Source: Corynebacterium sp.
GTDB lineage: Bacteria > Actinomycetota > Actinomycetes > Mycobacteriales > Mycobacteriaceae
Direction of reading: 5' to 3'
DNA: 61,706 nucleotides
NCBI RefSeq assembly: GCF_030538285.1
Contig: NZ_JAUNUG010000014.1
Span: 1-61,706, forward strand
In this document: positions 171 through 60,121 of the stretch, in pieces
Layout: each line of letters starts with the position of its first letter
Position numbering within the stretch: the stretch's first letter is position 1
The notes under the pieces: generated by a model
Databases searched by the model: none
What the model saw: the letters and a program-made list of their open reading frames with translations, nothing else
Told to the model about the DNA's origin: nothing
Program-made: the position numbers and the translations under genes

Positions 171-1541
171 ATGCTCGCTACAATGACCGACCTGACCGAT
201 ACCGCCCTGGCCGCCGACATCAACCAGTCCCATCTCAGCCTCACCCATTTCAAGGCCCGTTTCATTCTCGCCGTCACGGAGTTCGACGAACGCGATCTCG
301 CGCGCGATCACGGGGCCCCGAGCACCGTTGTCTGGATGCAGCGGAAGTTCGGCCTCAAGCGATCCACTGGCTTCGAGTATCTGGGGGTCGGCCGTAAGCT
401 GCGGAAGTTCCCGCGCCTGGCGCAGGCGTTTCTCGACGCCGAGTTCTCTTACTCCATTGTGCGGCTTCTGCTGCGCTATCTCACCGAGGACAACGAGGAA
501 GAGCTGTTGGAGCTCGCCGCCGGCCACACCTACGCAGAGCTGGCGGCCAAGCTGGCGGGGCGCGATCAGCCGGATGCGAAACCGCGGCTGAACAAGATCT
601 CGGTGGTCACCGACCCGGAGACTGGTGAGGTGCGGATTTGGGGCGTGCTGGATGCGCAGCGCGGCGCTGAGCTGAAGGCGGCCCTGAAGATCTCTGAGCT
701 GGCCAACCTCATCGACATTGACAATGTGGATGAGGAGGTGCTCAATGATCCGGCAGCTGTTGAGAAGCTTATCGACGACGCCCGCACCCCGCAGGATCCC
801 GAGACCCCGGCCCCGGCACAGAAGCGGCCCAACCGTACGCGTTTCGGTACCCACCTGTCGGTGACGGTGTTCACCGCCTTCATGGGGTTGGTACACATGG
901 TGCGCAGCCACCCGATCCGGCGGGTGCGGGCCCCGGGTGCGGAGGTCAACGTGCTGTTCACGCAGGATGACCGGGCCTACATACCCGGGCATCACGGCGG
1001 GCTCCCCGGCCAGCTGATGAGACAGGTGCTCAACGGGGCGGTGCGCTATCACCTGCTGGACTCCCGGGGATTGACGTTGAAGGTGACGCGGGCAGCGCGC
1101 TTGGCCACGGAGGCACAGATCAAGGCGCTGTTGGCCGTCTGGGAGTACCGATGCGCGGGCCCGGGATGTGACCACTCGAGTTTCCTGGAGTTCCACCACA
1201 TCCAGGACTACGCCAAGGGCGGCCTCACCGCCCTGTCCAATCTCATTCCCTTGTGCTCGGGGTGTCATGCCTTGGTCTCGGCGGGCCTGATGACCATCTT
1301 TGTGGACACTGACCCGGTGTTCCTGCGCTTCCGCTTGCCGGGCGGCGAGTCGTACACCTCCGAAAACCGCAGCCTGGTGATGAAGGACGTGGCGCTCGGC
1401 GAGTGGGCCGACAAGTACCTCAACGGTCCGGTGCCGCACGGCGACGAGGACCAGCTCCAGGTCTGGGAGCACGAGGACAGCTTCGCCGATCTGGAGGACG
1501 AGAAGTCCGCAGCTGCGGACTCCACCGAGGTCAACGGATGA
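171..1541 (+). CDS. HNH endonuclease (DUF222-type) protein
   Basis: A 456-residue protein of the DUF222/HNH family common in actinobacteria. The helical N-terminal region is followed by an HNH nuclease motif at about residues 325-366: YRCAGPGC, FHHIQDYAKGG, LSNLIPLCSGCH, with paired Cys-x-x-Cys-type zinc ligands and the HH catalytic pair. The first ATG is chosen because GGGGGAG lies 3 nt upstream; an ATG 12 nt downstream (183) is the alternative. Members of this family are often repeated in the genome and their biological role is unclear. The C-terminal tail contains palindrome copy 2, read as SAAADS. Its 3' end overlaps the convergent ispE by 11 bp. The nuclease fold is secure; the cellular function is unknown. 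Confidence 0.88.
   Translation: MLATMTDLTDTALAADINQSHLSLTHFKARFILAVTEFDERDLARDHGAPSTVVWMQRKFGLKRSTGFEYLGVGRKLRKFPRLAQAFLDAEFSYSIVRLLLRYLTEDNEEELLELAAGHTYAELAAKLAGRDQPDAKPRLNKISVVTDPETGEVRIWGVLDAQRGAELKAALKISELANLIDIDNVDEEVLNDPAAVEKLIDDARTPQDPETPAPAQKRPNRTRFGTHLSVTVFTAFMGLVHMVRSHPIRRVRAPGAEVNVLFTQDDRAYIPGHHGGLPGQLMRQVLNGAVRYHLLDSRGLTLKVTRAARLATEAQIKALLAVWEYRCAGPGCDHSSFLEFHHIQDYAKGGLTALSNLIPLCSGCHALVSAGLMTIFVDTDPVFLRFRLPGGESYTSENRSLVMKDVALGEWADKYLNGPVPHGDEDQLQVWEHEDSFADLEDEKSAAADSTEVNG
1504..1521. repeat. 18-bp palindrome AGTCCGCAGCTGCGGACT, copy 2
   Basis: Perfect palindrome inside the last codons of the HNH endonuclease gene, read as S-A-A-A-D-S. The core is identical to copies at 49-66, 6261-6278 and 20649-20666. 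Confidence 0.9.
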
Positions 1542-2490
1542 GGTGCGCACCCTTCGCGGGACCGTGGGCGATGGTTCCGGAGTAAGCACCATCGGCAAGG
1601 AGGTCATCGAGGAGGTCCCGGGCGTGCAGCTCTGTCTCGCACAGGAAGGCCACGGTCGGACCCGAGCCGGACACCATCCCGGCCAGCGCACCGCCCGCCA
1701 ATCCGTCCTGGCGCATGCGTTCCACGTCCGGGCGCAGCCGTCGGGCGGGAGCCTCCAGGTCATTGTGCAGGTGAGCAGCCAGCTCCCGCGGATTACCTGT
1801 CACCAATGCCTGGGACAAGCCTTCGGTGCCCATCACTGGGCCGTCAATGACGCCCTGCTCACGGAGGGTGTCGAGCTCCACGAAGACGCGGGGCGTCGAT
1901 AAGCCTTCCTTAAAGAAGACGAGCACCCAGTGATACGTGCCGCGCGAGAGCATCGGGGCGAGTTGCTCGCCACGGCCGGTGCCGAGCATCGTCCCGCCCT
2001 GCAGCGTGAAGGGAACATCGGAACCGAGCTCCGCAGCCAGCTCCAGCAAAGTCTCCTGCGATGCGGCCAGGTACCGCTCCGAAAGTAGGGCGTGCGTGGC
2101 CACCAGCGCAGCCGCCGCATCCGCGGAACCGCCGGCCATGCCGCCCGCCGTGGGAATGCCCTTGTGGATGTGGATGTGCACCGGCGGGCACTCCCCCATG
2201 CCATGCTGCGTGCGGTAATGCTCCACGAGCTTATCGACGCCCCGCCAGGCCAAGTTCGTTGCATCCGTCGGGACGGATGTCGCGTCCATGCCTGTCGCGG
2301 TGAGGCCGGTGACGATGCTGCCTCCTGTGATCCAGTCGGCGTCGGTGTCCACCTCCAGGGTGACCGTGTCGGAGAGGTCGAGGGACTGGAAGACAGAGAC
2401 CAGGTCATGGAAACCGTCGGGCCGCAGATCACCGACGCCCAGGTGCAGGTTGACTTTGGCGTGGGCGCGGGCAGCGATGCTGCGGCTCAT
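1531..2490 (-). CDS. ispE: 4-diphosphocytidyl-2-C-methyl-D-erythritol kinase
   Basis: A GHMP kinase of 319 residues that phosphorylates CDP-methylerythritol with ATP in the non-mevalonate isoprenoid pathway, in the cytoplasm. The N-terminal [14 protein letters not shown] is the substrate-side signature. [19 protein letters not shown] near residues 111-129 is the GHMP ATP-binding loop, and GSGPTVAFL near residue 275 is the third GHMP motif. The start ATG overlaps the ksgA stop by 4 bp (ATGA), so the two genes are translationally coupled in the usual actinobacterial ksgA-ispE order. The 3' end overlaps the convergent HNH gene. Two copies of the dispersed CTTATCGACG word lie inside it (1894, 2229), in two different reading frames. 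Confidence 0.95.
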
Positions 2491-3347
2491 GGTGTCACCC
2501 CCGCGAGGCGGACGAAATCGGTGACGTCGAGCTTTTCACCGCGCAGCTGCGGGTCAATGTCGGCGGCGCGCAGAGCCTCCTCGGCCGTTGCACCGGAACC
2601 GTAATGCCCGGAAAGTGCGGCGCGGAGGGTTTTGCGACGTTGGGCGAAGGCGGCGTCGATAAGCGGCCAAACCTTTGCGCGGGACTCATCGTTGATCGGC
2701 CATGGCTCGGTGCCGGGGGCGAAACGGTCAATGCGGACCAGGCCGGACTCGATGTTGGGCGCCGGCCAGAACACGTGCTTACCGATCGTGCCTGCCCGAC
2801 GCACCTGGCCATAAAAGGAGGCTTTGACGCTGGGCACGCCGTAGATCTTCGAGCCCGGCTGCGCGGCCAGGCGATCGGCGACCTCCGCCTGCACCATGAC
2901 GAGCACGCGGCGGATGGAAGGAAATGTGGCCAGCAGGTGCAACAGGACCGGAACGGAGACGTTATAGGGCAGGTTAGCGACCAGCGCGGTCGGCTCCCCC
3001 AGATCCGCCGGCTCCACCTTGAGGGCATCCTTGAGGATCACCTGCAGGCGATCGGCGTAAGGGGCAGCCCGCCATTCGACGGTGTGGGGCAGCTCGGCAG
3101 CCAGGCGCGGGTCAATCTCCACGGCGGTGACCTGCTCCACCGTGTCGAGCAGCCCCAAGGTCAACGACCCCAGGCCAGGGCCGACCTCGACGACGTGATC
3201 GTGCGGGTCGAGGTCGGCGGCGGAGATGATCATGCGCACCGTGTTGGGATCGTGGAGGAAATTCTGGCCGAGCTTTTTCGTCGGGGTGACGTCGAGTTTC
3301 TCCGCCAGGGTACGGATCTCCACGGGGCCGAGCAGTTGCGAGGTCAT
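2487..3347 (-). CDS. rsmA: 16S rRNA (adenine1518/1519-N6)-dimethyltransferase
   Basis: RsmA/KsgA, 286 residues, dimethylates two adjacent adenines near the 3' end of 16S rRNA using S-adenosylmethionine during 30S maturation. Visible motifs are [10 protein letters not shown] (N-terminal), [15 protein letters not shown] (SAM-binding motif I) and [11 protein letters not shown] (the catalytic NLPY motif). A -10 box TAGATT (minus strand, 3354-3359) stands 6 nt upstream of the ATG with no ribosome binding site, so the mRNA is probably leaderless and starts at this ATG. It is co-transcribed with ispE. Also known as ksgA. Confidence 0.95.
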
Positions 3348-3965: not shown

Positions 3966-5288
<1,323 letters not shown>

Positions 5289-6154: not shown

Positions 6155-6160
6155 GGCTGA

Positions 6161-7219: not shown

Positions 7220-9286
7220 TCAGCCCCGGCTGGCCAGCGCGAAGGGCAACACTGGCTGACCGGTGCGCTCGGCCAGGGCATGGCCTGCGACGGTGACCGA
7301 CCAACCGGTGTCGATGAGGTCGGTGACCAGCAGGACTGGGCCGTCTGGTTCCCCGACGCCGCCGAAGTCCCAGTGGTCGAGTAGCGCCGTCACGCGGTAG
7401 GCGGAGTTCTGCGCTGTGACCTCCCCCGCCCCCGCGCGCACGGGCAGCACCCCGGCAAAGGACATCTGCCCCACCGCAGCGATCGCTTCCGCCAACGCCT
7501 CCACAAAAGCGGTGCGCTCTGGGTCGTGTGAACCCAGCGCCACCACCGTGGTGGGCCGCTGCGACCAGTCCCAGTCGGAGAGCACCGCGACGATGTGCGG
7601 CAACCAGGTGTCCTGCTGCCAGGGGGCGGTGGGGCGCCAGGAGGGATCGCCAAGAAGCTGGGTCAACGCCGGTCCGCGGGCGATGTCGTTGAGTCGACCC
7701 AGAGCACGCCCCGGCTCCACCCCGTGGATGCGGCCCCTGACGGCGATGCCGGTGGGCCACTGACGGCGCTGGGTGACGCGGACGCCGGGGGCGGTGAGTC
7801 GGGCGTCGACACGCTCGGCGACTTCCCGGTCCACGTCTACATCCCGACGGAAGCCGGTGCAGTTGTCACAGCGGCCGCAGGGACCCTGCGCGGTGGCGTC
7901 GTCGAGCTGGCCACGCAGGAAAAGCATGCGGCAGGCCTCGGTGGTCTCGTAGGCGACCATCGCGTCCTGCTCCGCCTGCCGGGCTTGGGCGAGGCCGGCG
8001 TAGCGGGCGGCGTCGTAGGCCCAGGGCTGGCCGGTGGACACCCAGCCACCTTTGACGCGGCGGACCGCACCGTCCACGTCGAGGACTTTGAGCACCTGGT
8101 CCAGCCGCGAGCGAGACAGGTCCACCTGGGCCTCGAGCTTCATCGTCGACTGCGCCTCATCCCCCAGCACACCGAGTAAGTGGCGCACCGTTTGCTCGTC
8201 GGGGAAGGAGACGGAGGCGAAGTACTCCCAGATATCGCGGTCCTCTGCCCCGGGCAGGAGAATGACGTCAGCGCGTTCGGTGCCACGGCCCGCGCGGCCG
8301 ATCTGCTGGTAGTAACTCACCGGCGAACCCGGTGCGCCGACGTGGACGACGAAACCGAGATCGGGTTTATCGAAACCCATGCCGAGCGCCGAGGTGGCCA
8401 CAAGCGCCTTGAGTTCGTTGTTGATCAGCGCCTGCTCCAGCCTTTCGCGTTCCGTCGCCTCGGTGCGGCCGGTGTAGGCGGCAACGTTCCACCCAGCCGC
8501 CTCCAGCGCCTCGGCTAGGTCCTCGGCGGCAGCGACGGTGAGGCAGTAGATGATGCCGGAGCCCTCGAGCTCCGCGAGGTGCGTGGCCAGCCAGGCCGGG
8601 CGCTGCGTGGTGTCGGGCAGGCGGACAACAGAGAGGCAGAGGGACTCGCGGTCAAGCCCGCCGCGCAGCAGCCCGGTGTCTGCCCCTAACTGCGCCTGCA
8701 CATCGGCGACGACGCGGTCATTGGCAGTAGCGGTGGTGGCCAGCACGGGCACCCCTTCCCGCAGCCCAGCGAGCAGGTCGCGGATCCGGCGGTAGTCGGG
8801 GCGGAAGTCATGCCCCCAGTCGGAGATGCAGTGCGCCTCGTCGACGACGACCATCCCCACGGTCGCCGCCAGGGCAGGCAGCACCTCATCGCGGAAACCG
8901 GGGTTGTTCAGCCGCTCCGGGGAGACCAGCAGCACATCGATCTCTCCCGCGGCCACCTGCGCCTGGATCTCCTCCCATTCGGTCATGTTCGCCGAGTTGA
9001 GGGTGGCCGCGCGGATCCCGGCGCGCTGGGCGGCGGCGACCTGGTTGCGCATGAGCGCCAATAACGGGGAGATGATCAGCGAGGCCCCTGCCCCAGCGTC
9101 GCGAAGCAGCTTCGCCGCAATGAAGTACACCGCCGATTTCCCCCAGCCGGTTCGCTGCACGACGAGCATGCGGCGCCGATCGTTGACAAGCGCGTCGATC
9201 GCGGTCCACTGGTCATCGCGCAGCTGCGCGCCCGGCCCCGCGATGCCGGTGAGTAAGTCGTTGGCCTGATCCCTGGTTGCCTGCAT
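7220..9286 (-). CDS. RecQ-family ATP-dependent DNA helicase with C-terminal phosphoribosyltransferase-like domain
   Basis: About 688 residues. The N-terminal helicase core has Walker A QRTGWGKSAVYF, a DEAH box VVVDEAHCISDWGHDFRPDYRR (DEAHCISDWGHDFRP is the RecQ signature) and motif VI QQIGRAGRG. A RecQ zinc-binding region follows (CRMLFLRG and CGRCDNC). The last 200 residues are not RQC/HRDC; they end in GPVLLVTDLIDTGWSVTVAGHAL, which looks like the PRPP-binding loop of phosphoribosyltransferases and occurs in actinobacterial RecQ-like proteins. The ATG at 9286 is chosen because a -10 TAGCGT stands 7 nt upstream (leaderless). An ATG at 9316, overlapping the MFS stop codon, is the alternative start. 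Confidence 0.88.
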   Translation of the reverse strand: MQATRDQANDLLTGIAGPGAQLRDDQWTAIDALVNDRRRMLVVQRTGWGKSAVYFIAAKLLRDAGAGASLIISPLLALMRNQVAAAQRAGIRAATLNSANMTEWEEIQAQVAAGEIDVLLVSPERLNNPGFRDEVLPALAATVGMVVVDEAHCISDWGHDFRPDYRRIRDLLAGLREGVPVLATTATANDRVVADVQAQLGADTGLLRGGLDRESLCLSVVRLPDTTQRPAWLATHLAELEGSGIIYCLTVAAAEDLAEALEAAGWNVAAYTGRTEATERERLEQALINNELKALVATSALGMGFDKPDLGFVVHVGAPGSPVSYYQQIGRAGRGTERADVILLPGAEDRDIWEYFASVSFPDEQTVRHLLGVLGDEAQSTMKLEAQVDLSRSRLDQVLKVLDVDGAVRRVKGGWVSTGQPWAYDAARYAGLAQARQAEQDAMVAYETTEACRMLFLRGQLDDATAQGPCGRCDNCTGFRRDVDVDREVAERVDARLTAPGVRVTQRRQWPTGIAVRGRIHGVEPGRALGRLNDIARGPALTQLLGDPSWRPTAPWQQDTWLPHIVAVLSDWDWSQRPTTVVALGSHDPERTAFVEALAEAIAAVGQMSFAGVLPVRAGAGEVTAQNSAYRVTALLDHWDFGGVGEPDGPVLLVTDLIDTGWSVTVAGHALAERTGQPVLPFALASRG

Positions 9287-9315: not shown

Positions 9316-10542
9316 TTACCTCTGAGCTGCTAGTTCATCATCGACGAAGCTGGCTTTTGCGGCCCGGAAACCGACCATTCCCATGAGCACGCACACACCG
9401 GCCAGGACGGGCAGGATGAGCGAGAAGTCCCCCATCGACTCGCGAACCACTCCCACCACCAGCGGGCCGAGCGCCGCGATGACATAGCCGACCGGTTGCA
9501 CGAAACCGGACAGCCGCGCGGTGACCAGCGGCACGCGGGAGCGGGCGGGGATGAGTGCGATCGCCGTCGGGAAGCAGAAACCGCCGACACCCAGCAACGA
9601 TGCCCACAGCATCGGGGAGGCGGCCGGCGCCATCCACAACCCCACATAGCCCGCCGCCATGAGCGCGGAGAAGAGCACCGGCAGCCACACGATGGAGCGC
9701 AGCCGGTCGATGATGACGGGCATGATGAGGCCGCCGACGATGTTGAAGCTGCCGGCCACCGCCAGCGCCAGGCTCGCCGTGGAAGCCGCGACGTCACTGT
9801 CAACAAGGATTTTCGGCAGCCAACCCATCTGGATGTACGCGTGCATGGACTGCAGGCCGAAGAACATCATGAGGAACACGGCCGTGGGTGAGCGCCACAT
9901 GGAGACTTGCTTGTCGACGCCGCCGTCCACCCGCGGCGAGGTCGACGACGGTACGTCGCGCCCCACCCGCAGCACGACCACGAACCACACCACCGCCTGC
10001 ACTGCGGCGGGAATGGCCCAGAGGAACAGGGCCCAGCGGAAGTCGTCGGAAAGCAGGGCGGTGAGCGGGCCGGCCGCGCCGGAGATCCCCAGCACCGAGC
10101 CGTAGACCGTCATGAGTGCAACAATGTGGCGGCCGCCATGGTTTTTGATCCACGCTGGTAGCAGAACATTCGCCAGGGCGATACCGACGGTGACGAACAC
10201 GGTGAGCACGATGAACGCCCAGATGTCCCCCACCCAGGGCCGCGCCGCCAGGCCCACCAGGGACAGCATCATGCCGATGAACAGGGTACGCGAGAGCCCC
10301 AGGCGGGTGGCCAACGGCACGGCCAGCAGACCCAATACCGAGAAGAACAAGCCCGGGATGGCGGTGATGACACCTGCCAGGGAACCGCCGACGCCGAAGG
10401 CGGTGAGGGCGTCGGCAAGCACGGCGCCCAGCGAGGAAATGCCGGAACGCAGGTTGAATGCCGCGATGAATACGGCGGCAAAAAGAAGCAGCGCGGGGAG
10501 AACCCGCGCTGTCCGCCGTCGGGGTGTGCTCATGCACCCCAT
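9316..10542 (-). CDS. MFS transporter, CynX/NimT-like
   Basis: A 408-residue major facilitator with about 12 transmembrane helices. The first helix segment FIAAFNLRSGISSLGAVL matches the CynX/NimT group (cyanate or 2-nitroimidazole transporters), and VGLAARPWV resembles the helix 2-3 loop. The substrate is unknown. Two starts are possible: MGCM at 10542 or MSTPRR at 10533, the latter with a weak TGTAAT box 7 nt upstream. The stop codon overlaps an upstream ATG of the RecQ-like gene, so the two may be co-translated. It follows metG by 13 bp. Confidence 0.85.
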   Translation of the reverse strand: MGCMSTPRRRTARVLPALLLFAAVFIAAFNLRSGISSLGAVLADALTAFGVGGSLAGVITAIPGLFFSVLGLLAVPLATRLGLSRTLFIGMMLSLVGLAARPWVGDIWAFIVLTVFVTVGIALANVLLPAWIKNHGGRHIVALMTVYGSVLGISGAAGPLTALLSDDFRWALFLWAIPAAVQAVVWFVVVLRVGRDVPSSTSPRVDGGVDKQVSMWRSPTAVFLMMFFGLQSMHAYIQMGWLPKILVDSDVAASTASLALAVAGSFNIVGGLIMPVIIDRLRSIVWLPVLFSALMAAGYVGLWMAPAASPMLWASLLGVGGFCFPTAIALIPARSRVPLVTARLSGFVQPVGYVIAALGPLVVGVVRESMGDFSLILPVLAGVCVLMGMVGFRAAKASFVDDELAAQR

Positions 10543-14206: not shown

Positions 14207-14216
14207 CTTATCGACG
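14207..14216 (+). repeat. CTTATCGACG dispersed word, intergenic copy
   Basis: One of 18 copies in the window, here between the BCCT and rsmI genes and so not explained by protein coding. Confidence 0.7.
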
Positions 14217-40491: not shown

Positions 40492-40593
40492 GACTGTCAC
40501 CGCCCTTCCCGTTCGTTGTTACCTCACTGATAGTCGCACACCGCACCGGATTACCCCCGGCTGGCGGGGAGCACTCCCCCCCCGCAATGATGC

Positions 40594-47462: not shown

Positions 47463-48209
47463 ATGCGCATGACGACTGAGCGGTCGACCCGAGGAAAGCA
47501 CCGCAAGATCACCACCTCGCAGACCGCCAAGGGTCGTATCGCACTGGTGGCGGTTGCCACCGGCGCCGTCTCCACCGCAGGTGTCGGCGGCGCTGCTGCC
47601 GCTCAGCTGCAGGCCACCAACATAGCTGACACCGCTGTCACCACCCCGGATGTCGCCCTCGCGGCAAACACCTCCGATATCGCGGCGCAGGTCACTGAAG
47701 CCGCCCCGCAGATCCTGGCTATCGCCGAGCACAAGCCGGCTGATTACATCCAGGCCCAGTTCGACAAGGCCGTGGAGTTCGCCGACGTCCGCGCCCAGCT
47801 GGATCAGGCGCTGCGTGCTCCGTCCGTCGCCAAGCCGGCCGAGGGTGTGTTCACCTCCGGCTACGGCCCGCGCTGGGGCACCCTCCACGCCGGCATCGAC
47901 ATCGCCAACGCCGTGGGCACCCCGATCCTCGCCGTCATGGATGGCGTCGTGGTCGACTCCGGCCCGGCCTCCGGCTACGGCAACTGGATCCGCATCCAGC
48001 ACGAGGACGGCACCATCTCCCTCTACGGTCACATGGAGACCCTGGACGTCGCCGTCGGCCAGACCGTGACCGCCGGCCAGAAGATCGCCGGCATGGGCAA
48101 CCGCGGTTTCTCCACCGGTTCCCACCTGCACTTCGAGATCCACCCGGGCGGCCACGGCGCCGTCGATCCGGTTCCGTGGTTCGCGGAGCGCGGCATCACC
48201 ATCGCCTAA
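47463..48209 (+). CDS. Secreted M23-family metallopeptidase (LytM domain), copy A
   Basis: A 248-residue exported endopeptidase. The signal-like segment is IALVAVATGAVSTAGVGGAAAA (about 25-46), a helical linker follows to about 125, and the LytM domain carries all zinc and catalytic motifs: GTLHAGIDIANAVGTPILAV (H-x3-D), ISLYGHME and GSHLHFEIHPGG (H-x-H). It should cut peptidoglycan cross-links. GAAGAAGG precedes the ATG. A paralogue lies at 52375. An MtrA-like repeat stands upstream and a terminator at 48227. Confidence 0.93.
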   Translation: MRMTTERSTRGKHRKITTSQTAKGRIALVAVATGAVSTAGVGGAAAAQLQATNIADTAVTTPDVALAANTSDIAAQVTEAAPQILAIAEHKPADYIQAQFDKAVEFADVRAQLDQALRAPSVAKPAEGVFTSGYGPRWGTLHAGIDIANAVGTPILAVMDGVVVDSGPASGYGNWIRIQHEDGTISLYGHMETLDVAVGQTVTAGQKIAGMGNRGFSTGSHLHFEIHPGGHGAVDPVPWFAERGITIA

Positions 48210-48881: not shown

Positions 48882-49583
48882 ATGTCCCCCACTTCTCCCG
48901 CTCCCCTGGAGCTGCAGAACGTCACCTGCGTGTTCGGGGACGGCCCGCGCCGCGTCGTCGCCCTCGAAGACATCTCCCTCACCCTGGAACCAGGCGAACT
49001 CGTCGCCGTGATGGGACCCTCCGGTTCCGGCAAGTCGACGCTGCTCAATGTTGCGGGCCTCCTACAGGCGCCGACCTCCGGTCGGGTGCTTATCGACGGC
49101 GCCGACGCCGCCGACCTCTCCCCCTCCCGCGCCGCTCTTTTGCGTCGTTCGCGGATCGGTTTGGTTTTCCAGCACTACAACCTCGTTCCCACCTTGAGCG
49201 TCGGGGAGAACGTGTCCCTGCCCCTGGAGTTGGGCGGACTCAGCCCGGCGCAGTGCCGGGAGGCGGCGCGGATCGCGCTGCAGGAGGTCGGCCTCGAGGG
49301 ACTCGACGATCGTTTCCCGGAGGAGATCTCCGGCGGCCAGGCCCAGCGCGCGGCCATCGCCCGTGCGCTCATTGGTGAACGCTCCGTCCTGCTGGCCGAT
49401 GAGCCGACCGGCGCCCTGGACACCTCCACCGGTGACGCTGTGCTGCGTATTCTCCGCGAGCGCGTCGACGAAGGTGCCGCCGGCATGATCGTCACCCACG
49501 AGCCGCGCTTTGCCGGCTGGGCGGACCGCGTCATCGTGGTCCGCGACGGCCGCCTCGTCGACGATGGTGGTGAGCTGTCATGA
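48882..49583 (+). CDS. ABC transporter ATP-binding protein (LolD/MacB-like)
   Basis: 233 residues: Walker A GPSGSGKSTLLNVAG, the Q-loop in LVFQHYNLVPTLSVGENVSL, ABC signature ISGGQAQRAAIARAL, Walker B SVLLADEPTGALD and an H-loop in VTHEPRF. The type pairs with FtsX-like permeases for lipid or peptide export. It overlaps the permease gene by 4 bp. Substrate unknown. Confidence 0.93.
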   Translation: MSPTSPAPLELQNVTCVFGDGPRRVVALEDISLTLEPGELVAVMGPSGSGKSTLLNVAGLLQAPTSGRVLIDGADAADLSPSRAALLRRSRIGLVFQHYNLVPTLSVGENVSLPLELGGLSPAQCREAARIALQEVGLEGLDDRFPEEISGGQAQRAAIARALIGERSVLLADEPTGALDTSTGDAVLRILRERVDEGAAGMIVTHEPRFAGWADRVIVVRDGRLVDDGGELS

Positions 49584-52177
49584 GCACACTGCTCGCCGCC
49601 ACCCGCCCCACCCGGCGCGATATCCTGCGCCACCCGTGGCGCATCCTGGCCGCCGTCCTGCTTATCGCGCTGCCCGTGTTCGCCGGTTCGTGGATCCTTG
49701 CCACTGAGCATTCCGCCTCCACGGTGATGACCGGCCCCACCATCCGCACGTCCGCAGAACTCGGTGGGGATACCTGCCGGCAGTCCATCGACCGCTCGCG
49801 TCATGACTGTGAAGGTGACGTCCGGCCTGGGAGCGCGCTCGATCTACTCGAAGCACACCTGCCGGAAGGGTTCGAGGCGGAACTGCACTACACCTCCTGG
49901 GGTTCGGCCTCCACCGAGCATCGCCAGAGCACTCTCAACATCCGGCAGCGCCCCACCGGCGCACTCCCGCCCGCAGACGAGATCTATCTTCCCTCCTCCG
50001 CTGCAGCGGCCCTGCAGGTGGAAGCCGGAGATACCTTCACCTACACGCCCGATAGCTCGGAATTGGCCAGCGTCGAGCTGACCGTGGCCGGCATCTCGCC
50101 CGGTTTCGACGCCCTCGTTTCCGAGCCCACGCTGCTGGCCCCTACCGACTCTCCCGAATCCGCCGAGGAAACCTACCGCTCGACGTGGGTGATCACCGGA
50201 CCCCGGGAGTTCACCTGGGATGATGTTCTGGCGCTCAACGCGGTGGGCTTTACCGTGCGCGCGGAGGATGTCATCGACAATCCACCGCCGGCTGATGCGG
50301 TCCCGGAGGGATACCGCACGGTCCACCATCCGGCGACGGTCACCTCCGATGCCATGACCCTGTTCCTCATGATGGTCGCAGCCCTTGTCGTCGGCGTGCT
50401 GTTCCTCCTGGTCATCTCCCCGGTGTTCACCATCGCCACCACCCGCATGTCGCGAATTTTCGCGCTCATGAGCTCCCAGGGAGCCACCCCCGGACACATC
50501 CGCCTCGCGGTCCTCGCCTACGGACTGCTGGCCGGTGTCATCGGAGCGACGATCGGTGCCGTCCTCGGCGTCGGTGCCCACGCTATCTGGTGGATGTTCA
50601 CCTACCCGGGGTGGCCACAGGCCGTCCCCTGGGGATACGTGGCTCTTCTCTGGCTGCTGGCCGTGGTGGCGTCGACGGCGGCGGCGATGCTGCCGGCCTG
50701 GGTAGTGTCGCGGGCGTCGATAAGCGCGGGAGTCCAGGGTGCCGCCCCGGATCGCCTGCTGCAGTGGCGCCCGTGGATGGCCATTGGCCCCGTGGGGCTG
50801 GCCCTGCTGGCGGGAGGCATGTTGGTGGCCTGGCTGACTGTCGATCATGATGTGCTCACCTATTACGGGCCGCTGCCCGCGCTGGCCATGGTTGTGTTGC
50901 TGGCGGCGAGCGCACCCGCCCTGGTGTGGGTGATGGGCCGGGCCGGTCGAAAGGCGCCTGTGGCGTGGCGTCTGGCCCTGCGGGATGCGGGACGGCAGTC
51001 GCTGCGCAGTGTGCCCGCGCTGGCTGCGCTCATGGCGGTGCTGGCGGTATCCGTGGGCATCATCACCGGGGCGCAGGCTGCCCGCGAGCGTTCGCAGGAC
51101 CTCTTTGAGTCTGTGTACGAGAACGAGGCGATCCTCATCACCCCGGAAGGGCGGGGCGAGCACCGCCCACAGGAAGAGGACGTGAAGGATGTGATCACCC
51201 ATATCCAAAGCATCACCGGGCCTGCGGAACGCACCACCCTGCGCGGGGTGCACCCCAACTGGCACGGGGACAACTTCTATGAGATCAACTACGGGCAGCT
51301 ATGTGGCCCCGGAAACCAGTCTGAACAGTGCGCTCTGCTGGAGCGTTCGGATCGGGTGAGTGGGCCGCTGGAATGGGCGAGTGGGTCCTATCTTGAGGCC
51401 TCCCCCGAGATGCTCGATCTCCTCCGGATTGACGAGCCCGTCGACCTTTCCACCCCGGCGGTCCTGGTGCCCCGGGATTTCACCGTCGATGAGCTGACGC
51501 TGCAGCACAATGCCTATTCCGAGGGTCAGGACCCGGAGGTTCTCGACGAAGTGACCCTGCCCACCCTGCCCGTACTTCCGGAGCTGATGGTGGCGACCCT
51601 GATCACGCCCGCCGGGCTTGCGGAGCTCGGTGCGCCCGTCGACTACGTCGGCACCATTCTCACCCCCGCCGAGAAGATCACTTTCACCGAGCGCCGCGAC
51701 ATTGCCGCGTGGGTGAAAGAGGAGACAGTGGGCACGAGCGTCAACGTCCTGCCGCCGAACAACCGCCCCGACTGGTGGACTGCTGCCGCCGCCGGGATCC
51801 TCGGGCTCGGCGTGCTCGTGGTGGTCACCCTGGTGTTGGCATTGTCCTGGCAGGGTTCGCGTCGCCAGTTCGCGCTTATCGACGCCATCGGCGCACCGCC
51901 CTCACTTCCCTCCCGCGTTTCCGGTGCTTTCGCCGCCCTGCTCGCCCTGGCGGGCTCGCTGGCCGGCGTGGTGTCCGGATACCTGGCCGCGTGGTTCATG
52001 TCCACCCGGACGGTAGTGCACCCCACCGGTGTGGTGATGGAGACCGGGGCTGCTGGCTACCTGGCGCCTGACTGGTGGCTGTTGCTCGTCCTGCTCGTGC
52101 TCACCCCGGTGGCAGCGTGGGCGGTGGGCTCGCTGTTCCACCGCCGACTCGGCGAATTGGAGTATCGGGAGACCTAA
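49580..52177 (+). CDS. FtsX-like ABC transporter permease
   Basis: 865 residues. An N-terminal transmembrane segment (ILAAVLLIALPVFAGSWILA) is followed by a first large extracytoplasmic domain (about 40-260), four helices of an FtsX core (about 260-400 and 410-460), another helix with a second extracytoplasmic domain (about 500-730) and three final helices (about 735-850). This is the 10-helix two-FtsX layout of bacitracin/lipid-type exporters. With the ATPase and PadR regulator it may pump or sense a cell-envelope-active compound. Two CTTATCGACG words lie inside (50715, 51874). Confidence 0.88.
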   Translation: MSTLLAATRPTRRDILRHPWRILAAVLLIALPVFAGSWILATEHSASTVMTGPTIRTSAELGGDTCRQSIDRSRHDCEGDVRPGSALDLLEAHLPEGFEAELHYTSWGSASTEHRQSTLNIRQRPTGALPPADEIYLPSSAAAALQVEAGDTFTYTPDSSELASVELTVAGISPGFDALVSEPTLLAPTDSPESAEETYRSTWVITGPREFTWDDVLALNAVGFTVRAEDVIDNPPPADAVPEGYRTVHHPATVTSDAMTLFLMMVAALVVGVLFLLVISPVFTIATTRMSRIFALMSSQGATPGHIRLAVLAYGLLAGVIGATIGAVLGVGAHAIWWMFTYPGWPQAVPWGYVALLWLLAVVASTAAAMLPAWVVSRASISAGVQGAAPDRLLQWRPWMAIGPVGLALLAGGMLVAWLTVDHDVLTYYGPLPALAMVVLLAASAPALVWVMGRAGRKAPVAWRLALRDAGRQSLRSVPALAALMAVLAVSVGIITGAQAARERSQDLFESVYENEAILITPEGRGEHRPQEEDVKDVITHIQSITGPAERTTLRGVHPNWHGDNFYEINYGQLCGPGNQSEQCALLERSDRVSGPLEWASGSYLEASPEMLDLLRIDEPVDLSTPAVLVPRDFTVDELTLQHNAYSEGQDPEVLDEVTLPTLPVLPELMVATLITPAGLAELGAPVDYVGTILTPAEKITFTERRDIAAWVKEETVGTSVNVLPPNNRPDWWTAAAAGILGLGVLVVVTLVLALSWQGSRRQFALIDAIGAPPSLPSRVSGAFAALLALAGSLAGVVSGYLAAWFMSTRTVVHPTGVVMETGAAGYLAPDWWLLLVLLVLTPVAAWAVGSLFHRRLGELEYRET

Positions 52178-53169: not shown

Positions 53170-55466
53170 ATCTTCTCCATCGGTACCCCGCCGATGAGCA
53201 TGAGCCGCACCTTGCCGGAAGATCCGAAGTCAATGGTGACGGTGGCGCGCGCACCGGAACCGTCGGAGGCGATGACCGTGCCCAACCCGTACTTGTCGTG
53301 GTTGACGCGATCCCCCACCGCCAGCTGCAAGTTGTTGTTCTTCGGCCGGGCCTTCGGCAGGCTCGGCTTCTGCGGTGTGCTGCGATGCATGGGGCGTTCC
53401 CAGGAGCTGTCACCACCCCAGGAGGACTCGGGCTCTTCTCGCCGCCAGTCCACCAGCTCACCGGGCACCTCCGCCAGGAAGCGGCTCGGCGGGTTGGTCA
53501 TCGGGTTACCCCAGGAGGAACGCAGCATCGCACGAGTGAGGTAGAGCTGTTCCCGGGCGCGGGTGATGCCCACGTACGCCAGGCGGCGTTCCTCCGCCAA
53601 CTCATTCGGATCCCCGAGCGCGCGCAGGTGCGGGAACTGGCCGTCCTCCCAGCCGGTGAGGAAGACCACCGGGAACTCCAGGCCCTTGGCCGTGTGCAGT
53701 GTCATGAGCGTGACCACGCCCTGCTCGTTGTCGGGGATCTGGTCAGCGTCTGCGACCAGGGAGACCTTCTCCAGGAACGCCTGCAGCGACCCTGGCTCCG
53801 GCTCCCCCTCGTCGAGGGAGAACTCGCCGCCGTCCATCTCCGCGTAGGCCACCTGCATCGCCGCCTCCGATGCGAACTCCCGCGCCACCGACACCAGCTC
53901 GTTGAGGTTGTCCAGGCGCGCTCCATCCTGCGGATCGTTGCTCAGCTCCAGCTGCTCCCGATAGCCCGTCACGTCGAGGATCCGGGAGATCAGCTCGCCG
54001 ATGTCCAGCTGGGGCATCTCAGTGCGCAGGCCGCCCATCATCTCGTTGAACTTCACGATGGCGTTGCGCCCCCGGGAACCGAGGAGGGAGACCTTGTCCT
54101 CCGCGGCGTCGATAAGCGCCTGCCCGAAGGACATCCCGTTACCTTCCGCATGGACGGCGACCATCGCCTGCGCGCGATCGCCGATACCGCGGCGCGGGGT
54201 GTTGATGATGCGGCGCAGGCTGACCGTGTCATCCGAATTCGACAGCACACGCAGGTAGGCGACCATATCGCGGATCTCAGCGCGCTCATAAAAGCGGGTG
54301 CCGCCGACCACCTTGTAAGGGATGCCGGCGCGGATGAACACCTCCTCCAGCGCGCGGGAGGCGTTGTTCGTGCGGTACATCACCGCGATATCGCTGTAAG
54401 TGCGGCCGCGATCGGCGAGGGCGTCGATCTCCCCGGCGATGAAACGGGCTTCATCGTGCTCATTGTCGGAGACGTAGCCGATGATCTGCTGCCCCTCCCC
54501 CAGCGCCGTCCACAGCTTCTTCTCCCGGCGACCATCGTTGCGCGAGATGACCGCGTTGGCGGCGCTGAGGATGGTCTGCGTCGAGCGGTAATTCTGCTCC
54601 AGCAGAATGGTGCGCGCCTGCGGGTAGTCGCGCTCGAACTCCTCGATGTTGCGGATCGTCGCCCCACGGAAAGCGTAGATCGACTGATCCGAGTCACCCA
54701 CCACGCACAGCTCGGGGGCGTTCGGGCCAGAGCCGACCAGGGTGGCCACCAGCATGTACTGGGCGTGGTTGGTGTCCTGGTACTCGTCGATGAGCACGTG
54801 GCGGAAACGACGGCGATAATGGTCCACCACCTGCGGATGCTGCTGGAAGATCCGCACTACCTCACCAATGAGATCATCGAAATCGAGGGCATTCGCCGCA
54901 CGCAGGCGGCGCTGATAGTCGGCGTAGACCTCCGCCACGGTGATGTCAAAGGGGTTGCGCAACGCCTGCGCATCCTCCGCCGCCTGCTGCGGGGAAATCA
55001 GCTCATTCTTCAGATTCGAGATCGCATTCGCCAGGACGCGGGCGGTGAATTTCTTCAGATCCAACTGATGATCCTTGGCGATCATGCCGAACAGCCGCCG
55101 CGAATCATCCGCATCGTAGATGGTGAAGTTGGTGTTCAGGCCCGGTACCAGCTGCGCCTGCTGACGCAGGATCCGCACACACACCGAGTGGAACGTGGCC
55201 ACCCACATCCGCTCCGCCACCGGGCCGACCAGACCAGAGACGCGCTCCCGCATCTCCGCCGCGGCTTTATTGGTGAACGTGATCGCCAGGATCTCCCACG
55301 GCGCCACCCCGCGGTCCCGCATGAGGTGTGCAATACGCCGGGTGAGCACCGCCGTTTTCCCCGACCCCGCGCCGGCGACAATGAGCAACGGCGAGCCGGA
55401 GTGCTCGACCGCCGCCTTCTGCTGTTCGTTGAGACCGAGAGTGAGATCAGTGGAGGATTCCTGCAT
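53166..55466 (-). CDS. pcrA: UvrD/PcrA-type ATP-dependent DNA helicase
   Basis: A 766-residue SF1A helicase for nucleotide excision and mismatch repair and replication restart. Walker A is AGAGSGKTAVLTRRI, Walker B/II is VLIDEYQDTNHAQY, motif III VGDSDQSIYAFRGA, motif IV EQNYRSTQTIL, motif V TLHTAKGLEF and motif VI YVGITRAREQLYL. The C-terminal Tudor-like end reads VGDRVNHDKYGLGTVIASDG. The ATG at 55466 is chosen because TAGGTT (minus strand, 55474-55479) stands 7 nt upstream; an ATG at 55496 with GGAGGGG is the alternative. Divergent from chorismate mutase. Confidence 0.95.
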   Translation of the reverse strand: MQESSTDLTLGLNEQQKAAVEHSGSPLLIVAGAGSGKTAVLTRRIAHLMRDRGVAPWEILAITFTNKAAAEMRERVSGLVGPVAERMWVATFHSVCVRILRQQAQLVPGLNTNFTIYDADDSRRLFGMIAKDHQLDLKKFTARVLANAISNLKNELISPQQAAEDAQALRNPFDITVAEVYADYQRRLRAANALDFDDLIGEVVRIFQQHPQVVDHYRRRFRHVLIDEYQDTNHAQYMLVATLVGSGPNAPELCVVGDSDQSIYAFRGATIRNIEEFERDYPQARTILLEQNYRSTQTILSAANAVISRNDGRREKKLWTALGEGQQIIGYVSDNEHDEARFIAGEIDALADRGRTYSDIAVMYRTNNASRALEEVFIRAGIPYKVVGGTRFYERAEIRDMVAYLRVLSNSDDTVSLRRIINTPRRGIGDRAQAMVAVHAEGNGMSFGQALIDAAEDKVSLLGSRGRNAIVKFNEMMGGLRTEMPQLDIGELISRILDVTGYREQLELSNDPQDGARLDNLNELVSVAREFASEAAMQVAYAEMDGGEFSLDEGEPEPGSLQAFLEKVSLVADADQIPDNEQGVVTLMTLHTAKGLEFPVVFLTGWEDGQFPHLRALGDPNELAEERRLAYVGITRAREQLYLTRAMLRSSWGNPMTNPPSRFLAEVPGELVDWRREEPESSWGGDSSWERPMHRSTPQKPSLPKARPKNNNLQLAVGDRVNHDKYGLGTVIASDGSGARATVTIDFGSSGKVRLMLIGGVPMEKI

Positions 55467-56606: not shown

Positions 56607-58067
56607 CTACAACGGCAGCGAGATGTACTTCGGCTCCAGGTACTCGCGGATGCCCTCGAAGCCGCCCTCGCGGCCGATGCCGGACTCCTTGACACCGCCG
56701 AAGGGAGCTGCCGGGTCAGAGAGAGTGCCCTTGTTCACGGCGACCATGCCGGCCTCGATGCGCTCCGCCATGCTCAGCGCCCGCTCCAGGTCTGCGGTGA
56801 ACAGGTAGGAGGCCAGGCCGAAGGGGGTGTCGTTGGCCATGGCGACGGCCTCGTCGTCGCTGTCGAAAGTGGTCACTGCCAGGACGGGGCCGAAGATCTC
56901 CGCCGACAGAATCTCGGCGCCTGCGGGGATATCGGTGAGCACGGTCGTCGGGTAGTAGAAGCCCCCCTCGGGCAGACCAGTTGGCCGTGAGCCGCCGAGG
57001 GGGCGGGACGCGCCGCGGTCGAGGGCGTCGTCGACGAGCGAGGTGACGGTCTCCAGCTGATCGGCGCCGGAGAGCGGACCGTAGGTGACGCCCTCGTCGG
57101 TGCCGGGGCCGATGTGGAAGGACTCCATGACCTTCACAGCCTTGTCCATGAACTCGTCGCGCACGCTGGAGTGGACGAGGAAGCGGTTGGCGGCGATGCA
57201 TACCTGTCCGGCGCCGCGCATCTTTGCGACGGCGACAGCCTCCGCGGCCAGGTCCAGGTCGGCGTCCTCGCAGACGATGTAGGGGGCATTGCCGCCCAGC
57301 TCGAGGGAGACGCGCATCGAGTGCCCGGCTGCTTTCGCAGCGAGCATCTGACCGACCTCGGTGGAACCGGTGAAGGTGAGCTTGCGGAGGCGGGGGTCGT
57401 CGAGAAGCGCGGACACGCGGGATGAGGAAGAGGTGGGCACGACGGCGAGCACGCCGTCGGGAAGGCCCGCCTCGGCCAGCAACTTCGCCAGGTACAGCAT
57501 GGTCAGCGGGGTTTTCGACGCGGGCTTGACCATGATTGTGCAACCCGCGGCCAACGCCGGGGCGATCTTCCGCGCGCCCATGGCCAGCGGGAAGTTCCAC
57601 GGGGTGATCGCCAGGCAGGGGCCGACGGGCTGGTGGTGGACGATGATCCGGGCGCTGCCGGCCGGGTTGTGGCGATAGTCGCCGCGGATGCGCACGCCCT
57701 CCTCGGCGAACCAGCGGAAGAACTCCGCGCCATAAGCAACCTCCCCGCGCGAATCGGGCAGGGCCCGGCCCAGTTCCGCGGACTGCAGGTAGGTCAGCTC
57801 CTCCTCGTGGGCCATGATGAGCTCGAAGGCGCGGCGCAGGATCTCGCAGCGCTCGCGGGCAGGCGTGGCCGCCCAGTCGGGCTGCGCCGCGCACAACGAA
57901 TCGAGGGCCCGGCGCGCGTCCTTTGACGTGGCCGAGGCGACCTCCGTCAGCACGCTGCCGTCAGAGGGGTTGATCACCTCGAAGGTGCCGCCGTCGGAGG
58001 CATCGACGAAGGAACCGTTGAGGAAGAGGCGGGTGGGGGCGGCGTCGATAAGCGTTGCCAGATCCAC
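56607..58067 (-). CDS. NAD(P)-dependent aldehyde dehydrogenase (succinate-semialdehyde dehydrogenase-like)
   Basis: 486 residues. The family motifs are ITPWNFPLAMGARKIAPALA (NAD-binding loop and Asn), FTGSTEVGQMLAAKAAG, the general-base Glu in VSLELGGNAPYIV, the nucleophile Cys in GAGQVCIAANRF and the C-terminal FGGVKESGIGREGG. The best match by memory is the GabD group oxidising succinate semialdehyde, but other substrates are possible. It starts with GTG overlapping the monooxygenase stop by one base. A CTTATCGACG word lies at 58043. Confidence 0.88.
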   Translation of the reverse strand: MDLATLIDAAPTRLFLNGSFVDASDGGTFEVINPSDGSVLTEVASATSKDARRALDSLCAAQPDWAATPARERCEILRRAFELIMAHEEELTYLQSAELGRALPDSRGEVAYGAEFFRWFAEEGVRIRGDYRHNPAGSARIIVHHQPVGPCLAITPWNFPLAMGARKIAPALAAGCTIMVKPASKTPLTMLYLAKLLAEAGLPDGVLAVVPTSSSSRVSALLDDPRLRKLTFTGSTEVGQMLAAKAAGHSMRVSLELGGNAPYIVCEDADLDLAAEAVAVAKMRGAGQVCIAANRFLVHSSVRDEFMDKAVKVMESFHIGPGTDEGVTYGPLSGADQLETVTSLVDDALDRGASRPLGGSRPTGLPEGGFYYPTTVLTDIPAGAEILSAEIFGPVLAVTTFDSDDEAVAMANDTPFGLASYLFTADLERALSMAERIEAGMVAVNKGTLSDPAAPFGGVKESGIGREGGFEGIREYLEPKYISLPL

Positions 58068-58460: not shown

Positions 58461-60098
58461 ATGGCCGACATCACCACCTCCGCCGAATGGAAGAACCTGG
58501 AGTCCGAGTTCGAACGCACCCAGGATCAGACCCTGCGGGAGCTGTTCGCCCAGGATCCGCAGCGCGCGGAGAAGCTCACTTTCGATGCGGCGGGCCTGCA
58601 CGTCGACCTGTCCAAGAATCTGCTTGACGACGCCGTCCTCGACGCCCTCGTCGCCCTCGCCAAGGAAGCACAGCTCACTGACGCCATCGAGGCGATGTTT
58701 AACGGCGCGCACATCAACAACACCGAAGACCGCGCCGTGCTGCACACCGCCCTGCGTCTGCCGGTGGAGAAGGACCTGGAGGTCGACGGCCAGGACATCG
58801 CCGCGGACGTCCACGAGGTGCTCGGCCGCATGCGTGACTTCGCCTCCGCCCTGCGCGCTGGCACCTGGCTGGGTCACACCGGTCGCACCATCAAGAAGAT
58901 CGTCAACATCGGTATCGGTGGTTCCGACCTGGGACCGGCCATGGCCGCACAGGCGCTGCGTTCCTACGCCACCGCCGGCATCACCGCCGAATTCGTCTCC
59001 AACGTCGACCCAGCCGACATGTCCGCCACCCTCGAGGGCCTCGACCCCGAGTCGACCCTGTTCATCATCGCGTCGAAGACCTTCACCACCCAGGAGACCC
59101 TGGCCAACGCCCACGCCGCGAAGCGCTGGCTGCTGGAGGCCTTCGACGGGGACGAGCAGGCCGTCGCCAAGCACTTCGTGGCAGTGTCCACCAACGCAGA
59201 GAAGGTCGCCGAGTTCGGCATCGACACCGCGAACATGTTCGGCTTCTGGGACTGGGTCGGCGGCCGCTACTCCGTGGACTCCGCCATCGGGCTGTCCCTC
59301 ATGGCTGTCATCGGCCCGATGGACTTCATGCGCTTCCTCGGTGGCTTCCACGCCATGGACGAGCACTTCCGCGCCACCCCCTTCGAGAAGAACGTTCCCG
59401 TCCTCATGGCCCTGCTGGGCATCTGGTACGTCAACTTCCACGAGTTCGAGACCCACGCCGTCCTCCCCTACTCCCAGGACCTGGCCCGCTTCGCCGCCTA
59501 CCTGCAGCAGCTGACCATGGAGTCCAACGGCAAGTCTGTGCGCCACGACGGCTCGGCCGTCAATTACGCCACCGGTGAGATCTACTGGGGCGAGCCGGGC
59601 ACCAACGGCCAGCACGCCTTCTACCAGCTCATGCACCAGGGCACCCGCGTCGTCCCGGCCGATTTCATCGGCTTCGCCCGCCCCAAGAACGACCTGCCGA
59701 CGGCCACCGGCGCAGGCTCCATGCACGATCTGCTCATGGGCAACCTCTTCGCCCAGTCGAAGGTGCTGGCCTTCGGTAAAAACGCCGAGGAGATCGCCGC
59801 CGAGGGTGTGGCCGAAGACCTGGTGAGCCACAAGGTCATGCCGGGCAACCGCCCCTCCACCACCATCCTCGCCGAAGAGCTCACCCCCGCCGTGCTCGGC
59901 GCCCTCATCGCCCTCTACGAGCACATCACCTTCGTCCAGGGCGTCATCTGGGACATCAACTCCTTCGATCAGTGGGGCGTGGAGCTGGGCAAGCAGCAGG
60001 CCAACCAGCTCGCGGCGGCCGTCTCCGGTGAGGAGGAGGCCGACTCCGGTGACGCCTCCACCGACGCGCTGGTGCGCTGGTACCGGGCGAACCGTTAG
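58461..60098 (+). CDS. pgi: Glucose-6-phosphate isomerase
   Basis: 545 residues, interconverting glucose-6-phosphate and fructose-6-phosphate. [20 protein letters not shown] is the phosphate loop, [10 protein letters not shown] and [13 protein letters not shown] bind substrate, and the signature [20 protein letters not shown], then [11 protein letters not shown], is intact. AAAAGGAG lies upstream of the ATG. The terminator follows at 60121. Confidence 0.97.
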
Positions 60099-60110
60099 TT
60101 TTAGGCGCGA

Positions 60111-60121
60111 CGTCGATAAGC
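60111..60121 (-). repeat. CTTATCGACG dispersed word, intergenic copy next to the pgi terminator
   Basis: CGTCGATAAGC on the plus strand, immediately 5' of the pgi terminator hairpin, outside any gene. Confidence 0.7.

Follow-up and report, generated by a model that had tools for sequence, protein, structure and literature searches.

A dispersed asymmetric word with dialects in Corynebacterium genomes: a candidate DNA uptake sequence

Why should one 10-base word, CTTATCGACG, recur throughout a stretch of 61,706 nucleotides from a Corynebacterium draft genome (contig NZ_JAUNUG010000014.1 of assembly GCF_030538285.1, hereafter the window)? The initial annotation had noted 18 copies scattered over both strands, most of them extending by one base, and had offered three possible roles: a nucleoid protein site, a word resembling DNA uptake sequences or a modification-related site. 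A recount confirmed 18 exact copies, 8 on the plus strand and 10 on the minus strand, of which 16 lengthen to GCTTATCGACG. CTTATCGACG is the most frequent 10-mer of the window, and 100 dinucleotide shuffles of the window gave a mean of 0.06 copies and never more than one. Of the three roles, we favor the uptake-like one because of the density of the word, its presence on both strands, its indifference to reading frame, its clade-specific dialects and a base that switches in concert at orthologous positions; a nucleoid site is the main rival and a modification site is less likely. We propose with moderate confidence, from sequence comparisons, that Corynebacterium may use the word as a DNA uptake sequence by which self DNA is marked for natural transformation, with the optimum TGCTTATCGACGYCCSCG in this genome.

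The word and its placement

The genome that holds the window (G000; draft, 2,953,577 bases, 96% complete, 6.7% contamination) contains 863 copies of CTTATCGACG (436 and 427 by strand), or one per 3.4 kb, compared with two copies (1 and 1) of the reversed word. The initial annotation considered this spelling only and missed a wider word, GCTTNNCGAYG, with two free bases in the middle and either C or T next to last. This core emerged from words that are over-represented in other Corynebacterium species, and its two versions are referred to here as the C form, GCTTNNCGACG, and the T form, GCTTNNCGATG. The C form has 50 copies in the window (52 sites when both 10-mers without the leading G are counted) and 1,964 copies in the genome (980 and 984 by strand), against 64 for the control.

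The placement of the word was examined in 380 kb of G000 (the window and 20 further stretches), in which 372 genes were called by a simple codon-model script, and in 400 kb of the complete chromosome of a second species (G029). The caller made errors in the window, where it missed a BCCT transporter gene and called a plus-strand gene across a TP_methylase open reading frame (ORF), so the intergenic and antisense counts carry some error and a recount was made in gaps of at most 300 bases. In the G000 sample the C form occurs 261 times, and each word that differs from it by a single substitution at a fixed base occurs at most 44 times. Among the 24 usable copies outside the called genes the centre reads A in 17 and T in 22, a T precedes the word in 16 and C/G-rich letters follow it, and the consensus of these copies extends to TGCTTATCGACGYCCSCG. 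In the short gaps the A of the centre is found in 13 of 17 copies and the T in all 17. Because the A/T centre dominates in non-coding copies, coding relaxes the centre of the word, and CTTATCGACG is thus the optimum within the wider word.

It might be supposed that the word is a by-product of codon usage, of a Leu-Ile-Asp motif or of local base composition, as one frame, which reads Leu-x-Asp, holds most of the coding copies. Leu-Ile-Asp is indeed the commonest frame (60 of 102 copies of the 10-mer in G000), and in the sampled genes the word accounts for 145 of the 637 CTT codons in G000 and 91 of the 888 in G029, and for 56 of 101 and 31 of 82 Leu-Ile-Asp tripeptides, respectively. However, synonymous shuffling of the called genes reduces the 102 copies of CTTATCGACG in G000 to a mean of 5.5 (maximum 13 in 100 shuffles) and the 56 copies in G029 to 5.3 (maximum 11), and the wider word falls from 234 to 22.2 copies (maximum 31) in G000 and from 136 to 19.8 in G029. 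Copies also lie in sense and antisense orientation and in several frames. Additionally, the short intergenic gaps are denser in the word than the called genes: CTTATCGACG occurs at 0.80 per kb in the gaps of G000 (15 copies in 18.7 kb) and 0.35 per kb in those of G029 (7 copies), compared with 0.30 and 0.16 per kb in genes, and the wider word occurs at 0.91 and 0.50 per kb in the gaps and at 0.69 and 0.39 per kb in genes. The wider word is sparser over all non-called DNA (0.60 per kb in G000 and 0.28 in G029), which includes missed genes. Its density is higher in GC-richer genes, rising from 0.38 to 1.07 per kb in G000 and from 0.12 to 0.76 per kb in G029, a trend that would fit scarcity in foreign DNA but is confounded by composition. 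The comEC regions of word-less species, described below, are poor in the related pattern GCTTNNNGAYG. The shuffles and the intergenic copies rule out codon usage, the tripeptide and chance, and the likelihood that we leave to a by-product is negligible. The genome-wide count, the codon model and the intergenic comparison had all been proposed as checks in the initial annotation, and its argument that a protein motif alone cannot account for the copies is borne out.

The initial annotation had also described the copies as clustered and free of strand bias. The first part did not hold, as the wider word is neither clustered nor evenly spaced in the 380 kb of G000 (coefficient of variation 0.91; random placement gives 0.86 to 1.07) or in G029 (0.93; random 0.85 to 1.13). 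The second part did: in the 400 kb of G029, with the chromosome arms set from GC skew, 79 copies lie on the leading strand and 73 on the lagging strand, and the share of copies on the forward strand ranges from 0.42 to 0.56 across 173 genomes rich in the C form. This absence of polarity bears on the proposal that the word guides recombination or segregation, as Chi sites and FtsK-orienting polar sequences (KOPS) do, and is read by a DNA motor. The word resembles these elements in being over-represented, genus-specific and dispersed, but it is longer than known Chi sites, and RecC (PF04257) was found in none of 44 genomes, with a positive E. coli control and with AddAB and AdnAB outside the search. 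We regard a guide of this kind as very improbable.

Another possible account of a recurrent word is a terminator element or a selfish repeat spread through the genome. Copies of the word facing each other across 3 to 25 bases were counted as inverted pairs. Two intergenic inverted pairs in the G000 and G029 samples fold at -48.0 and -36.9 kcal/mol (z -8.1 and -5.3). The former, from G029 (L046:16030-16100), is a long perfect hairpin with flanking A and T tracts that lies between converging genes and, judged from its predicted fold, is likely to be a two-way terminator. At least one inverted pair is present in 155 of 242 genomes. The chance level, obtained by density arithmetic for eight genomes only, is 4 to 8 pairs in seven genomes that exceed it (G277 with 32, G275 with 29, G222 with 27, G158 with 26, G157 with 25, G144 with 21 and G184 with 18), and is about 8 in G000, which has 10. 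Terminator use thus looks like a secondary trait of some genomes, and G000 does not support inverted-pair terminators as a general feature. Most copies are single and lie inside genes, and no repeated flanks extend beyond a few bases; a selfish repeat or terminator element is accordingly given a likelihood slighter still than that of a Chi-like or KOPS-like guide.

Dialects across the genus

The comparison with sister species that the initial annotation had called for found the word in most sampled genomes of the genus, in clade-specific spellings. A genome was termed C-rich when GCTTNNCGACG reached at least three times the reversed control. Among 242 Corynebacterium genomes, 173 are C-rich, 13 are rich in the T form only, 11 are weak and 45 have neither form. 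The C-rich genomes carry 115 to 1,964 copies of GCTTNNCGACG (median 1,076; 166 of them with at least 300), and G000 has the most. The 13 T-only genomes carry GCTTNNCGATG at no fewer than 490 copies. Outside the genus, 40 genomes of the same order hold at most 17 copies of CTTATCGACG (reversed control up to 8), and six named outgroup genomes hold 0 to 3 copies of GCTTATCGACG. Within the genus GCTTATCGACG is abundant in C. urinipleomorphum (529 copies), C. gottingense (478), C. lipophiloflavum (251) and C. tuberculostearicum (97), and scarce in C. phoceense (7), C. jeikeium (5), C. macginleyi (4) and C. glyciniphilum (0). Our own matching of names to genomes places C. macginleyi (490 copies) and C. 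phoceense (625) in the T dialect. In 20-kb regions around comEC, GCTTNNNGAYG occurs 0 to 5 times in word-less species and 5 to 19 times in most bearers, and the bearer C. parakroppenstedtii has only 1 and 3 copies there. No alternative dialect was found in the word-less genomes G014, G039, G200 and G124 (80 to 100 kb each) or in eight pooled stretches from other word-less genomes.

Some genomes have intermediate or further spellings. One of the C-rich genomes (G119) carries both dialects, with 1,337 T-form and 352 C-form copies, and may represent a dialect switch in progress or a mixed specificity. Weak genomes such as G107, G041 and G188 have about double the control count of GCTTNNCGACG (101, 108 and 109 copies against 56, 49 and 59, respectively), and these copies are possibly relics of a lost word. 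Sub-dialects in the centre and flank are also seen: G158 and G144 have GA or TG, and G104 has GC or GA with an A after it.

A tree was built from LepA with 40 rows (38 Corynebacterium and 2 outgroups); of the 52 and 6 loci offered, respectively, the others had no usable LepA. On this tree four changes account for the three states (C form, T form and none), and two for presence versus absence. None of 200 shuffles of the labels matched the observed clustering, so dialects that keep a fixed core follow the species tree of these 38 genomes. The C form lies on the deepest sampled branch, absence and the T form each appear in two places, and the parsimony counts leave the direction of the dialect change unfixed. 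One T-form group (C. macginleyi, G006 and G206) is nested in a fully supported clade with the C-form species C. tuberculostearicum and C. kefirresidentii.

How the word changes at orthologous sites was followed in a pair of relatives, G004 (C form; 921 C-form and 125 T-form copies) and G006 (T form; 97 and 1,021 copies), with 84.9 kb aligned at 80.0% identity. The alignment covers 30 C-form sites of G004; in G006, 11 of them are lost and 19 retain all eight fixed bases other than the one that differs between dialects. Fourteen of the 19 retained sites read T and 5 read C, and the centre is unchanged in 18 of them. In other CGACG words the C of G004 reads T in G006 at 73 of 255 sites. When only Asp codons that still face a GAN codon in the partner are considered, the ratio of T to C is 13:2 at the word, with G in 2 more, and 272:357 elsewhere, with A in 24 more and G in 42 (Fisher p 0.0009). 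In the sense frame the other bases are retained at 12 of 20 word sites and, among seven control words, in 1 (p 0.08, with too few controls). In the reverse direction, 28 T-form sites of G006 correspond to 14 C-form, 1 T-form and 13 other sequences, and the control, other CGATG words, gives 107 C and 380 T of 529. The switch also appears in a smaller set of comEC regions compared between named species. The same one-base switch is seen at many separate sites, and therefore something reads the word.

As the two dialects differ by a C/T transition, the word could instead be related to modification by a methyltransferase or defence system, with the T dialect arising by deamination of a methylated C. 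Usual methylation sites are shorter, more tightly centred and not so asymmetric, and deamination would not retain the other eight bases, which 19 of 30 sites do at 80% identity. The T-rich G006 (1,021) also holds about as many words as its C-rich relative G004 (921). A role of this type has been proposed for HIP1 (GCGATCGC) of cyanobacteria, a highly iterated genome-wide word whose function is debated and whose abundance has been linked to methyltransferases, according to PMC4390886. HIP1 is an 8-base palindrome, whereas the Corynebacterium word has dialects and is asymmetric, GCTTNNCGAYG not being its own reverse complement. A modification-related word is, in our assessment, improbable.

A proposed role in DNA uptake

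The word thus has several properties expected of an uptake sequence: it is asymmetric, is present in hundreds to thousands of copies on both strands and exceeds the expectation from codons and composition. If it serves in uptake, a surface protein that reads the word would bind free double-stranded DNA. This reader would most likely be a minor subunit of the Tad/Flp pilus (the ssd-tadA-tadB-tadC-pilin-TadE locus) or a partner of it. Corynebacterium has a mycolate outer layer, and the DNA would be drawn across this layer to ComEA and then enter as a single strand through ComEC for recombination. Fragments that bear the word would enter more often, so each recombination event would tend to restore or spread it, and both strands of coding and intergenic DNA would come to fill with the word wherever the encoded protein permits. 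If the specificity of the reader changed, the dialect would change throughout the genome, and a loss of specific uptake would let the word decay. Uptake bias combined with recombination would explain the persistence of the word in genes, where it costs a rare Leu codon, its concerted change of dialect and its loss in clades that may have kept the general machinery but not the reader. The uptake role, the Tad component as reader and the competence of these species are all inferred from genome comparisons.

The machinery that this proposal calls for is present in G000. This genome encodes comEA-comEC-holA, with lepA further on, and a Tad locus with ssd (TIGR03815), TadA (TIGR03819), two T2SSF genes (TadB and TadC), a DUF4244 pilin and a DECH helicase; a TadE-like minor pilin in the locus scores below the curated cut-off. 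Among named species its ComEC is closest to those of C. lemuris and C. hylobatis (71%), and that of a Corynebacterium metagenome-assembled genome reaches 72%. Separate TadB and TadC, in two T2SSF frames, are found in 39 of 41 word bearers (the weak G127 and G214 counted); the exceptions are G198 with one match and G214 with none. The 39 other genomes (the weak G107 and G116 included) comprise 9 with separate TadB and TadC, 12 with both matches in one frame, 15 with one match and 3 with none. The association of Tad with the word is suggestive and clade-bound. In the 12 word-less genomes with fused matches, both lie in a single open frame of 353 to 539 residues, for example L193:9511-10533 of G132.

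Several observations weigh against an uptake role. None of the four families searched (ComEC, T2SSF, DUF4244 pilin and ComEA) cleanly separates bearers from non-bearers. ComEC is present in all 76 genomes tested, and its length, compared in 24 loci after trimming to the first start, gives no clean split, so neither its presence nor its length served as a discriminator. The DUF4244 pilin is present in 79 of 80 genomes (it is missing from G214, with its weak T form), and the ComEA repeat family matches in 80 of 80, 75 of them above the cut-off, with a second protein also matched in most genomes; neither family separates the groups, and ComEA-type hits occur in word-less species as well. Among the five genomes below the ComEA cut-off, G039, G124 and G043 have a hit beside comEC, that of G043 with an internal stop, and the listed matches of G198 and G222 include only the second kind of protein, in a frame of at least 780 residues. 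G198 is C. phoceense, which has 625 T-form words and a single T2SSF match, and the draft G222 has 1,752 C-form words and no ComEA-type hit. Nine word-less genomes keep separate TadB and TadC, and absence of the word amounts to only two changes on the tree, which leaves the Tad association with few independent events behind it. The random rather than even spacing of the word, the five retained sites that did not switch and the chance level of inverted pairs in G000 also count against uptake, and no natural transformation of Corynebacterium is reported among the open-literature matches listed. As the known competence genes are shared by both groups, another reader must carry the difference.

The lack of correlation between known competence genes and the word is instead compatible with the site of a chromosome-organising or nucleoid protein, whose dense and even-handed placement would fold or space the chromosome and whose drift in specificity would give rise to the dialects. 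The occurrence of copies along a complete chromosome on both strands and the concerted switch between dialects also fit this explanation. On the other hand, 45 of 242 genomes lack the word, which would be odd for an essential, housekeeping architecture, and we know of no nucleoid protein that reads an asymmetric word of 11 to 18 bases at thousands of sites. No candidate protein turned up, although no systematic search was made. A nucleoid site is therefore unlikely in our judgement, and is still the strongest alternative to a DNA uptake sequence.

The uptake proposal draws on parallels with characterized systems. The DNA uptake sequences (DUS) of the Neisseriaceae are read by the minor pilin ComP. 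They are asymmetric words of about 10 (10-12) bases with some thousands of copies (at least about 1,000), found within and between genes, with core-keeping dialects that follow phylogeny, and with inverted pairs at terminators that are abundant in all DUS genomes, as set out in PMC3630211. The letters and the phylum are unrelated here, and the Corynebacterium word differs in its two-base permissive centre and in its inverted pairs, which number 0 to 32 per genome and are at the chance level in G000. Corynebacterium carries a Tad locus, through which word-dependent uptake may run. The uptake signal sequences of the Pasteurellaceae likewise combine a short core with a weaker extended consensus, dialects and dispersal throughout the genome, according to PMC12616744 and PMC5217627, and they differ in letters and phylum from the Corynebacterium word, whose extension is C/G-rich and downstream. 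The closest parallel for the machinery is Micrococcus luteus, an actinobacterium that has comEA and comEC and requires Tad genes for transformation, as reported in PMC4322843 and, for comEA and comEC, in PMC6370729. The term "uptake sequence" is absent from the main text of PMC4322843, and competence in Corynebacterium would be an extrapolation. Among the open-literature matches listed, none reports an uptake sequence for Corynebacterium or describes this word as a feature.

Word sites in the window and their meaning for the genus

The 18 copies of the 10-mer occupy varied positions in the window. The sites given in the initial annotation are right, with the qualification that six of its plus-strand coordinates refer to the 11-mer and so include its leading G (the copy given at 767, for instance, begins at 768 as a 10-mer). 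Eleven copies had been said to read Leu-Ile-Asp, and eleven do. Nine of these are GCTTATCGACG in sense orientation in called genes: on the plus strand at 767..777 (HNH-domain gene), 32606..32616 (histidine kinase), 49088..49098 (ABC ATPase) and 51874..51884 (FtsX-like permease), and on the minus strand at 2654..2664 (rRNA adenine dimethylase), 17159..17169, 46585..46595 (DUF6350), 54107..54117 (UvrD/PcrA-type helicase) and 58043..58053 (aldehyde dehydrogenase). The other two, also GCTTATCGACG on the minus strand, lie at 13369..13379 in the BCCT transporter ORF (12695-14161) and at 14932..14942, in sense orientation, in the TP_methylase ORF (14324-15775); the caller had missed both ORFs, which have Pfam matches to BCCT and TP_methylase, and had placed a plus-strand gene over the latter. 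Three copies of GCTTATCGACG are in other frames or antisense: 1894..1904 (minus strand, sense in another frame) and 2229..2239 (plus strand, antisense) in the GHMP-kinase gene, named ispE in the initial annotation, and 50715..50725 (minus strand, antisense) in the FtsX-like permease gene. One copy, GCTTATCGACG at 40592..40602 on the plus strand, spans the end of a gene and its stop codon, as had been stated. The three copies that had been placed between genes are indeed intergenic: CTTATCGACG preceded by A at 14207..14216 (plus strand), CTTATCGACG preceded by T at 36536..36545 (plus strand) and GCTTATCGACG at 60111..60121 (minus strand).

The remaining 34 sites carry other centres, and unless a gene is named their placement is that given by the simple caller. 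GCTTCTCGACG is in sense orientation on the minus strand at 4568..4578, 21822..21832, 40338..40348 and 57398..57408 (the last in the aldehyde dehydrogenase gene) and on the plus strand at 24490..24500 and 25268..25278, and is antisense at 19542..19552 (plus strand). GCTTGCCGACG is in sense orientation at 4724..4734, 10410..10420 and 28344..28354 (minus strand) and at 36423..36433 (plus strand). GCTTCGCGACG is in sense orientation at 9097..9107 (minus strand), 15991..16001 (plus strand, mannosyltransferase-domain gene) and 25046..25056 (plus strand), and antisense at 46011..46021 (plus strand). GCTTCCCGACG is in sense orientation on the minus strand at 9565..9575 (in another frame), 21894..21904 and 23831..23841, and antisense at 41348..41358 (plus strand). 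GCTTGTCGACG is antisense at 9909..9919 (plus strand) and 33375..33385 (minus strand), and in sense orientation at 14851..14861 (minus strand, reading Leu-Val-Asp in the TP_methylase ORF under the caller's plus-strand gene), 20979..20989 (minus strand) and 35230..35240 (plus strand). Single sense copies of GCTTTCCGACG and GCTTAACGACG lie on the minus strand at 10044..10054 and 27557..27567, respectively. GCTTTTCGACG is in sense orientation at 18153..18163 (plus strand), antisense at 18732..18742 (minus strand) and intergenic at 33764..33774 (plus strand). GCTTGGCGACG is antisense on the minus strand at 33439..33449, 47825..47835 and 59162..59172, and GCTTGACGACG is in sense orientation at 40236..40246 (minus strand) and 58622..58632 (plus strand); the last copy of each lies in the phosphoglucose isomerase gene.

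Two other features of the window were observed. The BCCT transporter gene (12396-14161, minus strand) is split into two overlapping ORFs in different frames, which match positions 2-227 and 229-485 of the PF02028 profile, pointing to a frameshift in the genome or in the assembly. An 18-base perfect palindrome, AGTCCGCAGCTGCGGACT, has four copies in the window (49-66, 1504-1521, 6261-6278 and 20649-20666), and its 12-base half occurs 8 times, counted by strand, against 0.02 expected. The first copy lies just ahead of the HNH-domain ORF (171-1541) and the second within its end, and from these flanking copies the ORF looks as if it were a mobile or repeat-associated unit.

To our knowledge, self-recognition words in DNA uptake have so far been reported only from two Gram-negative families. 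The balance tips narrowly, in our estimate, toward a broader proposition: that Corynebacterium independently evolved sequence-specific uptake, which would be the first outside the Proteobacteria and in a Gram-positive organism with a mycolate layer, probably read by the Tad/Flp pilus, with dialects that have been switched and lost and that perhaps act as barriers to gene exchange among relatives. If this is true, the word would be a third, unrelated case, in the Actinobacteria, and self-recognition in transformation would have evolved beyond those lineages. The pairs of dialects that differ by one base, such as the C. tuberculostearicum and C. macginleyi groups, offer a natural route to the reader. 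Should the reader be a chromosome protein instead, the word would represent a new genome-wide architecture system, which would also be of note. Corynebacterium has medical and industrial members, and an uptake role would mean that this large genus is, or recently was, naturally transformable.

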